Assembly: GCA_030425045.1 (NCBI GenBank)
Contig: JAUHVL010000004.1
Coordinates: 62,001 to 126,000, forward strand
Reading direction: 5' to 3'
Source of the DNA: a bacterium
Lineage (GTDB): Bacteria > Bdellovibrionota > Bacteriovoracia > Bacteriovoracales > Bacteriovoracaceae
Length of the DNA: 64,000 nucleotides
Shown here: positions 42,522 through 44,811 of the stretch, one piece after another
Layout of the letters: each line of letters starts with the position of its first letter
Position numbering within the stretch: the first letter of the stretch is position 1
The notes under the pieces: generated by a model
What the model saw: the letters and a program-made list of their open reading frames with translations, nothing else
Told to the model about the DNA's origin: nothing
Databases searched by the model: none
Program-made: the position numbers and the translations under genes

Positions 42522-43073
42522 TTAATAACCAATTCTAACCTGCACTAAGTTTTTATTATTATCCATAGTCCAAATACTTCCTGTTGCAGCAGTATTGTTA
42601 TTTGAGTCAATATAACCAAGAGCGCCGGCAGTAAATGTTTCCCCTGTGTTATTTACAGTTGCACTTGCAACTTGAGCACTAAAAGTACCAACAAATGCCC
42701 TAACACCTCCAACGTTCTTAGCAGCTGCCCATCTAAACGTAGCACCATCAGGACAGTCGCCACCTTCTCCTCTCACAAGTGCATTTGCCGTGTTGTTAGT
42801 AGCTGCATGTCCTACAGCATAGTAATTATTAACAGGAGCAGTAAATCCAGCTTTCAATAAACAAGTAGCGAAGTGATCATAATCAGACTGCATTGTTGTT
42901 TGAGCTGAATAAATCCCCGCCAACTGAATTTTTGCTTCTGACGTTTTTGATTTCGCTTGATACCTTCTAAAGTTTGGAATAGCGACAGATGTGAGAACTC
43001 CAATAATGGCAACAACCACCATAAGTTCAACAAGAGTAAAACCAGATACATTACTTAAGTTTCGTACTTTCAT
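42522..43073 (-). CDS. Type IV pilin, paralog 1 (divergent, GT-linked)
   Basis: A 183-residue prepilin. The ATG at 43073 has AAAGGAG 7 bp upstream; the open frame continues to a TTG at 43094 without such a site. The 11-residue leader ends in Gly, cleaved before FTLVELMVVVAIIGVL with Glu5. Mature residues 1-58 are identical to the other two copies. The globular head has two Cys (ATCLLKAG, GGDCPD) for one disulfide, and its middle (RAFVGTFSAQVASATVNNTG) is quite different from the other copies. The C-terminus RIGY is shared. Its own promoter and leader are present and the GT-C-like gene follows. Confidence 0.95.
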   Translation of the reverse strand: MKVRNLSNVSGFTLVELMVVVAIIGVLTSVAIPNFRRYQAKSKTSEAKIQLAGIYSAQTTMQSDYDHFATCLLKAGFTAPVNNYYAVGHAATNNTANALVRGEGGDCPDGATFRWAAAKNVGGVRAFVGTFSAQVASATVNNTGETFTAGALGYIDSNNNTAATGSIWTMDNNKNLVQVRIGY

Positions 43074-43087
43074 GTTTAATCTCCTTT

Positions 43088-43106
43088 GGATCAATTGAGA
43101 TGACCC
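43088..43106 (-). ncRNA. Leader hairpin of pilin paralog 1
   Basis: In the mRNA sense, GGGTCA and TGATCC pair (one G-U) around the 7-nt loop TCTCAAT. The hairpin abuts AAAGGAG directly. The same structure with compensating base changes and identical loop occurs before paralog 2. Confidence 0.6.
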
Positions 43107-43229
43107 TTTCCTATTTCTAAAAATTCATTAAGAGAAGATTTAGCATTAGGTTTCGATTATTAAATTTTCAAAAAAGAGTTCTTTAACGAATGAAAGTTAT
43201 TCAATTAAATCACTCTAATTCTTAAGTTC

Positions 43230-43238
43230 ATTATACCA
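43230..43238 (-). promoter_or_regulatory. Extended -10 promoter of pilin paralog 1
   Basis: TGGTATAAT on the minus strand is a perfect extended -10. It is about 157 bp before the ATG, implying a leader near 150 nt. No -35 is evident. The same element (TGGTAAAAT) lies at the matching position before paralog 2. Confidence 0.6.
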
Positions 43239-43285: not shown

Positions 43286-43319
43286 AAAAAAAAAGGAAGC
43301 GTATTCACGCTTCCTTTTT
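43286..43319 (-). terminator. Terminator of pilin paralog 2
   Basis: GGAAGCGT-N4-ACGCTTCC flanked by A and T tracts forms a long stem 30 bp after the paralog 2 stop. The minus-strand T-tract is nine bases. It also has T5 in the other direction. Confidence 0.92.
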
Positions 43320-43348: not shown

Positions 43349-43897
43349 TTAGTAACCAATACGGTCCTGGCTAACAGCTTTAGTATCGTCAATTGACCAA
43401 ATACTTGCTGTGGCCGCAGTGTTGTTGTTCGAGTCGATGTAACCAACAGCACTAGCCGTAAAAGTTTCACCTGTAGCATCAACAACAGCTGTTAATTGCG
43501 CTGTATGTACCGCTGTCGTTACAGCAACACCACCAACGTTCTTAGCAGCGGCCCATTGAAAAGTTGCAGCGTTTGGACAATCTCCACCCTCACCTCTAAC
43601 AAGTGTGTTTGCTGCGTTTGTTGCAGCTGAGTGTCCTACAGCATAGTAGTTATTTACCGGAGCAGTGAAACCAGCATTTTCTAAACAATGTGCAAAGTGA
43701 TCGTAATCAGATTGCATAGTTGTTTGTGCTGAATAAATCCCCGCTAATTGGATTTTTGCTTCTGACGTCTTCGACTTAGCTTGGTATCTCCTAAAATTAG
43801 GAATAGCTACAGAAGTCAAAACTCCAATAATGGCAACAACCACCATTAACTCAACAAGTGTAAAACCTTCGCTTCTACGTAAAATACGTGTTTTCAT
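43349..43897 (-). CDS. Type IV pilin, paralog 2
   Basis: A 182-residue prepilin. The ATG at 43897 has AAAGGAG 5-6 bp upstream. The leader MKTRILRRSEG is cut before FTLVELMVVV. The protein differs from paralog 3 mostly in the leader and about a dozen head positions (for example AHCLENAG versus ATCLLKAG), so the two are recent duplicates. One disulfide pair is expected. It forms its own transcription unit, with a ~150-nt leader upstream and a strong terminator downstream. Confidence 0.95.
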   Translation of the reverse strand: MKTRILRRSEGFTLVELMVVVAIIGVLTSVAIPNFRRYQAKSKTSEAKIQLAGIYSAQTTMQSDYDHFAHCLENAGFTAPVNNYYAVGHSAATNAANTLVRGEGGDCPNAATFQWAAAKNVGGVAVTTAVHTAQLTAVVDATGETFTASAVGYIDSNNNTAATASIWSIDDTKAVSQDRIGY

Positions 43898-43910: not shown

Positions 43911-43929
43911 AGGACAATTGAGATGTCCC
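43911..43929 (-). ncRNA. Leader hairpin of pilin paralog 2
   Basis: In the mRNA sense, GGGACA and TGTCCT pair (one G-U) around loop TCTCAAT, one base before AAAGGAG. Compared with paralog 1, one base pair changes from T-A to A-T and the G-U position moves while pairing is kept. Confidence 0.6.
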
Positions 43930-44056
43930 GTTTCCCTCCAGTGAATTAGCCATTGAGAGACTAAGTACCTTTGGGTTTTGATTAAACTATGAATTAAAAC
44001 AAAACTTTTACTTGGAGAGAGTTACCAAATAAACTTTTATTCTTCTTCACTCTTTA

Positions 44057-44065
44057 ATTTTACCA
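44057..44065 (-). promoter_or_regulatory. Extended -10 promoter of pilin paralog 2
   Basis: TGGTAAAAT on the minus strand, about 160 bp before the ATG, is the counterpart of TGGTATAAT before paralog 1. No -35 is evident. Confidence 0.45.
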
Positions 44066-44209: not shown

Positions 44210-44234
44210 AAAAAAGGGAGACATAAGTCTCCCA
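44210..44234 (-). terminator. Terminator of pilin paralog 3
   Basis: GGGAGAC-N4-GTCTCCC, a 7-bp stem, is followed on the minus strand by seven T (44210-44216). It lies 28 bp after the paralog 3 stop and ends the pilB-T-C-pilin unit. Confidence 0.92.
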
Positions 44235-44262: not shown

Positions 44263-44811
44263 TTAATAACCAATACGATTTTGTGTTACCGCTTTTGTAT
44301 CATCGATTGACCAAATACTTGCGGCACCAGCAGTGTTGTTATTTGAATCAATATATCCAACCGCACTTGCTGTAAATGTTTCCCCTGTAGCATCAACGAT
44401 CGCCGCCAGCTGAGCAGTATGCACCGCTGTCGTTACAGCAACACCACCAACGTTCTTAGCTGCGGCCCACTGAAATGTATCACCATTAGGACAATCTCCG
44501 CCTTCACCTCTTACAAGAGTATTAGCCGCGTTAGCAGTAGCAGAGTGTCCAACAGCATAATAATTGTTAACAGGAGCAGTAAAGCCAGCTTTAAGTAAAC
44601 AAGTAGCAAAATGATCATAATCAGATTGCATCGTTGTTTGTGCTGAATAAATCCCCGCTAATTGGATTTTTGCTTCTGATGTTTTTGATTTCGCTTGATA
44701 CCTTCTAAAATTAGGAATAGCGACAGAAGTGAGAACTCCGATAATGGCCACAACCACCATGAGCTCAACAAGTGTAAAACCTTTTTTCGACTTTAAATTT
44801 TTCTTATTCAT
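44263..44811 (-). CDS. Type IV pilin, paralog 3 (in the pilBTC operon)
   Basis: A 182-residue prepilin. The ATG at 44811 has AAGGAG 9 bp upstream; the open frame runs on to a GTG at 44844 that would overlap pilC. Leader MNKKNLKSKKG, then FTLVELMVVV with Glu5. The head has the Cys pair and ends TQNRIGY. It starts 22 bp after the pilC stop, so it is the pilin expressed with the motor genes and perhaps the major subunit; that is an inference from position. It lacks the leader hairpin seen in the other two copies. Confidence 0.95.
   Translation of the reverse strand: MNKKNLKSKKGFTLVELMVVVAIIGVLTSVAIPNFRRYQAKSKTSEAKIQLAGIYSAQTTMQSDYDHFATCLLKAGFTAPVNNYYAVGHSATANAANTLVRGEGGDCPNGDTFQWAAAKNVGGVAVTTAVHTAQLAAIVDATGETFTASAVGYIDSNNNTAGAASIWSIDDTKAVTQNRIGY

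Follow-up and report, generated by a model that had tools for sequence, protein, structure and literature searches.

The window, by which we mean the whole 64,000-nucleotide stretch of DNA that was analysed, carries three pilin genes on the minus strand. Two of them, pilin 1 and pilin 2, are preceded by leaders containing two short hairpins each, the nearer of which lies beside the Shine-Dalgarno (SD) sequence. The third, pilin 3, begins about 20 nt after pilC without a hairpin leader, and its closest relative is pilin 2 (92% identity). The hairpins, SD sequences and candidate −10 elements listed below were read from the sequence, with additional support from the hairpin listing or from R1, a single-hairpin covariance model, where indicated.

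42525..43073, minus strand: pilin 1 coding sequence, type IV pilin, 182 aa, ATG at 43073-43071
43080..43087, minus strand: pilin 1 Shine-Dalgarno, AAAGGAGA
43088..43106, minus strand: pilin 1 proximal hairpin GGGUCA-UCUCAAU-UGAUCC, loop 43100..43094, double changes at six pairs across relatives
43119..43141, minus strand: pilin 1 distal hairpin AAAUCUUC-UCUUAAU-GAAUUUUU, loop 43133..43127 (also in the hairpin listing)
43230..43235, minus strand: pilin 1 candidate −10 element TATAAT, roughly 100 nt upstream of the distal loop
43290..43319, minus strand: terminator-like stem-loop after pilin 2 (found on the plus strand, with a T-run on both strands)
43352..43897, minus strand: pilin 2 coding sequence, type IV pilin, 181 aa
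43902..43909, minus strand: pilin 2 Shine-Dalgarno, AAAGGAGA
43911..43929, minus strand: pilin 2 proximal hairpin GGGACA-UCUCAAU-UGUCCU, loop 43923..43917 (also an R1 match)
43946..43964, minus strand: pilin 2 distal hairpin UUAGUC-UCUCAAU-GGCUAA, loop 43958..43952 (also an R1 match)
44057..44062, minus strand: pilin 2 candidate −10 element TAAAAT
44216..44233, minus strand: terminator-like stem-loop between pilin 3 and the pilin 2 leader
44266..44811, minus strand: pilin 3 coding sequence, adjoining pilC, without the element

The pilin 1 leader spans about 43223 to 43074 on the minus strand. Its proximal hairpin directly abuts the SD on the 5′ side, while a single nucleotide separates the stem end from the SD in pilin 2. 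The distal stem of pilin 1 is weaker, consisting of 3 + 3 bp interrupted by a 2 × 2 internal loop. The mechanical ORF call placed the pilin 1 start at a TTG inside the hairpin (43094, minus strand); the ATG at 43073, which is suitably spaced from the SD, is the likely start and was favoured over it.

The initial annotation, made from the sequence alone, had described the proximal hairpin beside the SD of pilins 1 and 2, with an identical UCUCAAU loop, a stem ending 0-1 nt before the SD, and a U-A to A-U swap together with a displaced G-U wobble between the copies. All of these observations held. The description of one hairpin per leader was incomplete, as a distal hairpin with the same type of loop had been overlooked in both. 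Its further argument, that the ~150-nt leaders align throughout and are thus under selection, proved weak. The two leaders are 60% identical (89 of 148 aligned bases), compared with 56% at the fourfold-degenerate sites of the same two genes, and conservation of the whole leader was rejected as evidence of selection. What stands out in these leaders is confined to the hairpins and the SD.

A sigma-70 consensus scan of the pilin strand returned no promoter match, so the evidence for promoters rests on the −10-like elements alone. In the source genome, each of the four leaders with the element has a TATAAT or TAAAAT at a distance of 96-103 nt above the distal loop. Over 48 leaders, TATAAT was present upstream of the hairpin array in 21, where 7.2 were expected. 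On the minus strand, the stem-loop at 43290..43319 reads GGAAGCGTGAATACGCTTCC followed by T9. As this terminator-like structure follows pilin 2, pilin 1 needs a promoter of its own. Taken together, the −10-like elements above the distal loop and the terminators before the leaders make it likely that transcription begins above both hairpins, which bears on the objection that a start further downstream would exclude them from the message. This was inferred from sequence, and no start site has been measured.

Covarying stems, loop consensus and tandem layout

Pilin-like proteins were encoded in 47 of 59 relatives, and were also found in contigs named Bacteriovorax, Halobacteriovorax and Bacteriovoracaceae. 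The same loop recurred in the leaders of these relatives on quite different stems. For the first set, every UCUYAAY within 220 nt upstream of a pilin was collected with its flanks disregarded, giving 60 sites. Four consecutive flanking pairs were present at 42 of the 60; over every 7-nt window of these leaders the figure was 3.6%. In the gap-free alignment of the 60 hairpins, double changes occurred at all six stem pairs; 83.6% of cells were paired, against 43% after shuffling and at most 48% when the partners were slid, and the covariation reached 0.977 (0.233 shuffled, at most 0.324 slid). The second set comprised leaders of further genomes, none of which had been used in the first alignment. 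The loop was present in 24 of these 27 leaders, and four flanking pairs in 35 of 42 hairpins over a background of 3.8%. Here 88.9% of cells were paired, with a covariation of 1.140 (0.235 shuffled, at most 0.290 slid). The shuffle counts are not probabilities, because the sequences are related; the slid controls preserve that relatedness. The paired flanks in relatives thus exclude chance as the source of the hairpin. Loss of pairing in relatives would have refuted the covarying hairpin proposed in the initial annotation, and pairing was in fact retained in most relatives that retain the loop. G-U pairs outnumbered A-C combinations on the mRNA strand (30 versus 11), and the folding strand is therefore that of the pilin mRNA.

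The loop was also determined without assuming its sequence, by a count, across 84 pilin leaders, of every hairpin whose loop is 7 nt and whose stem has 6 bp or more. UCUUAAU occurred 39 times, UCUCAAU 12, UCUUAAC 7 and UCUAAAU 5 (63 UCUHAAY in all), and the next listed loops were found once each. No comparable excess of any word was seen among the loops of 4, 5, 6 or 8 nt in the same 84 leaders. This census establishes UCUHAAY as the loop consensus. The element as a whole reads N6-UCUHAAY-N6′, where H is U more often than C and C more often than A, and its stems vary freely yet pair.

The hairpins are arranged in tandem. With imperfect closing pairs and rare single-occurrence loops accepted alongside UCUHAAY, two to four hairpins were counted in 44 of the 84 leaders, one in 10 and none in 30. 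The leaders without a hairpin belonged to secondary paralogs, to some main pilins closely following pilC, and to distant lineages. From the end of the proximal loop to the start codon there are 17-26 nt, and from the end of the 6-bp proximal stem to the SD −1 to 8 nt; for most distal loops the distance to the start codon is 50-100 nt. The base at loop position 4 can be mixed within single leaders (C, A, C in genome G094; U, U, A in G193), and its concordance within leaders was borderline (29 of 39 versus 24.4 expected, p about 0.05). In the pilA leader of G112 (L290), all three loops read UCUAAAU, each on a different stem. Such a concerted change was considered as a sign of coevolution between loop and reader, and is no more than suggestive, as UCUAAAY also occurs singly in other leaders.

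Specificity, distribution and gene context

In the source genome, four pilin genes carry tandem hairpins, the two beyond pilins 1 and 2 being located on contigs C60 and C37. The four proximal stems are GGGUCA, GGGACA, GCGAUC and GGCCA. Within this genome the element is absent from pilin 3, from the pilin at the end of contig C75, which follows another pilin, and from the divergent pilin of contig C66. The genome holds at least seven copies of the same-family pilin (contigs C72, C75/C37, C60 and C66), and the other sampled genomes mostly hold 1-3. The start of C37 and the end of C75 resemble two halves of one pilin, and a tandem pilin pair was therefore probably divided by the assembly at this point.

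The absence of the element from pilin 3, which had been noted initially, was confirmed, but it is a local feature. Relatives usually show the order pilB-pilT-pilC-pilA-(divergent gene)-ABC transporter-pilD, with the element between pilC and pilA, and the absence at pilin 3 is regarded as local because the pilC-linked pilA of relatives usually bears the element. In the studied genome, the leaderless pilin 3 has come to occupy the pilC-adjacent place that is held in relatives by a leader-bearing pilA.

When the whole source genome was searched with R1, the five best matches were pilin leaders, and the non-pilin matches lay inside or antisense to reading frames. Across 33 relatives, all matches in readable contexts that were located directly before an SD preceded pilins. 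The other readable matches were mostly inside reading frames, and the few noncoding ones had no SD in place. The search of relatives scored 150 candidates per genome, and weak sites may have been missed. A pattern combining the tandem loops and the SD was also run on 291 genomes. Without a stem filter it was unspecific, as the reversed control matched about as often, and it served for finding candidates only.

The tandem array precedes the main pilin gene in most Bacteriovoracaceae genera examined, a family which includes well-known predators. It was not found at 20 pilin regions from other families of the phylum or at the pilin loci of other phyla that were inspected (L054-L111). In the pilin tree, bearers of the element fall on either side of the family's midpoint root, with about 20 changes required; the element is therefore likely to be old within the family and to have been lost or gained repeatedly. 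Rfam 15 gave no match in the window at the gathering score, a permissive Rfam scan of the leaders returned no family at E ≤ 5, and no description of the element was found in the literature searched. The element is thus a strongly supported structured RNA without an Rfam model, tied to one gene of one family, and it suggests that type IV pilin synthesis in this family is set post-transcriptionally.

A proposed translational operator and its alternatives

Computation shows how the RNA folds, that its loop is fixed, that its hairpins lie in tandem and keep a fixed distance to the start codon, that in the genomes searched the element is confined to pilins, and that it is spread through one family. 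How the element acts is a matter of interpretation. On balance, and by a modest margin, we favour a tandem translational operator read by a trans-acting RNA-binding protein, for which there are no binding or expression data. In this model, two and sometimes three or four hairpins would each display a single-stranded UCUHAAY, the stems merely holding the loop, and a dimeric or multi-site protein is inferred to grip two loops together. Binding would block the access of ribosomes to the pilin mRNA, which is the most likely outcome since the proximal hairpin falls within the expected 30S footprint. An active protein would keep pilin synthesis switched off, and its modification or titration would switch synthesis on. 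That the effect is repression and not activation is assumed by analogy with the thrS and CsrA operators, and the sign of regulation is unknown. The supply of pilin for surface attachment or predation is an obvious, untested context. The initial annotation had suggested that a protein, a small RNA or a metabolite might act on pilin translation. A trans-acting factor was supported, and a protein fits best among the three. A metabolite is inferred to be an unlikely ligand because no base of the stems is fixed and because, for an aptamer, a loop of 7 nt is small. Against the operator stand the 10 leaders with one hairpin and the 30 with none, which include those of some main pilins.

Known systems offer partial parallels. 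In Escherichia coli thrS, the 30S subunit is kept from binding by ThrRS, which attaches to two hairpins that precede the start codon (PMC3858243). The pilin element likewise has two like-looped hairpins with 7-nt loops and short stems, one of them at the SD. However, UCUHAAY is not a mimic of the tRNA-Thr anticodon and lacks U33 (position 33 would be C), and the element precedes a pilin with no synthetase link seen, and does not qualify as an autogenous synthetase system. CsrA/RsmA leaders show a short loop motif, often at two sites with one at the SD, and belong to motility and surface genes. In contrast, the pilin loops counted in the census contain no GGA, and an involvement of CsrA has not been shown. 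The pilA1 gene of Clostridioides difficile carries the c-di-GMP riboswitch Cdi-2-4 in its 5′ leader, which acts by transcription read-through (PMC6200980). Both are structured leader RNAs on a major type IV pilin, but the leaders described here consist of two tiny hairpins without a ligand-binding fold, a GEMM-type fold or an Rfam match. RRM proteins of the U1A type read a 7-nt single-stranded loop word, with tandem copies on the regulated RNA. The pilin element also presents a 7-nt loop word in tandem copies, and small RRM proteins are near-universal in the phylum; it differs in the word and the loop size, and neither RRM subgroup examined tracks it.

The most serious alternative, which remains possible, is a signal for mRNA stability or processing, in which a nuclease or an end-binding factor reads the loops and translation is not the target. 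The abundant pilin message would then outlive, or be cut from, the pilBTC part of the operon. Hairpins at 5′ ends often stabilise mRNA, and a stability boundary would be of use at the place the element takes in relatives, between pilC and pilA. Nevertheless, a loop-specific factor would still be required, the 17-26 nt lock of the proximal hairpin to the start codon would not, and pilins 1 and 2 carry the element even though terminators separate both from pilC. It is less probable that a trans-acting small RNA with a seed near RUUDAGA pairs with the loops and blocks or opens the ribosome-binding site, and we consider this unlikely. A 7-nt loop that is exposed offers a seed a good target, and G could pair with C or U at position 4. 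However, the seed is broken by UCUAAAY, and single leaders can combine C, U and A at position 4; a protein rejecting only G at this position would accept such mixed loops and a single seed would not. Moreover, the loop is near-constant throughout the family, whereas a seed and its target can drift together, and Hfq was detected in none of the 59 genomes, with control genomes positive.

Three further explanations carry still less weight. CsrA might act through the AAGGA of the SD, the hairpins merely presenting that site. It is encoded in 48 of the 59 genomes, including the source genome, and the SD reads AAAGGAG. We regard this as very unlikely, as UCUHAAY contains no GGA and its conservation would be unneeded, the distal loop also lacks GGA, and genome G033 bears the element without a CsrA match. 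There is similarly little to recommend an intramolecular switch, such as a thermometer, in which the UCU of the loop pairs with the purine-rich SD in a hiding pseudoknot with no outside factor. The loop UCUC can indeed pair with GAGA of the SD in the window, but UCU would find a partner in nearly every SD, and UCUUAAU and UCUAAAU pair worse with GAGA than UCUCAAU does. Nor does such a switch account for the constant AAY portion of the loop or for the identical loop of the distal hairpin. Finally, a DNA operator for a transcription factor can be practically ruled out. Inverted repeats near promoters are often operators, but here it is the arms that vary freely while the asymmetric centre stays constant, opposite to what a DNA operator would show; in addition, the excess of G-U over A-C lies on the mRNA strand and the position is locked to the start codon.

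For the protein-read operator, the two short hairpins provide a defined bait for an RNA-binding regulator in a phylum where none of 59 genomes yielded an Hfq. Small RRM proteins were encoded in 58 of the 59 genomes, and two types were separated, one rich in Gly and the other with a K-rich tail. High scores for the latter were confined to Bacteriovoracaceae, where by score it is present in about 21 of the 37 family genomes. The Gly-rich type was not found in the element-bearing genomes G002, G007 and G018, nor the K-rich-tail type in G000, G014, G015 and G033. As neither is present in every element-bearing genome, co-occurrence does not support either subgroup as the reader, which has not been identified and remains hypothetical. 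A bolder reading proposes a family-wide RNA-protein pair dedicated to pilin, with UCUHAAY as a new word and a reader of a class not so far known in such a bacterial role, possibly an RRM protein; we consider it less likely than not. Small single-RRM proteins often occur several per genome in the 59 genomes of this phylum, where no Hfq was detected, and it is possible that they fill the role of RNA chaperones. The K-rich-tail type, restricted to Bacteriovoracaceae, often ends in GLxxLFxxLxK (L222, L223, L224, L234, L245, L256 and others).
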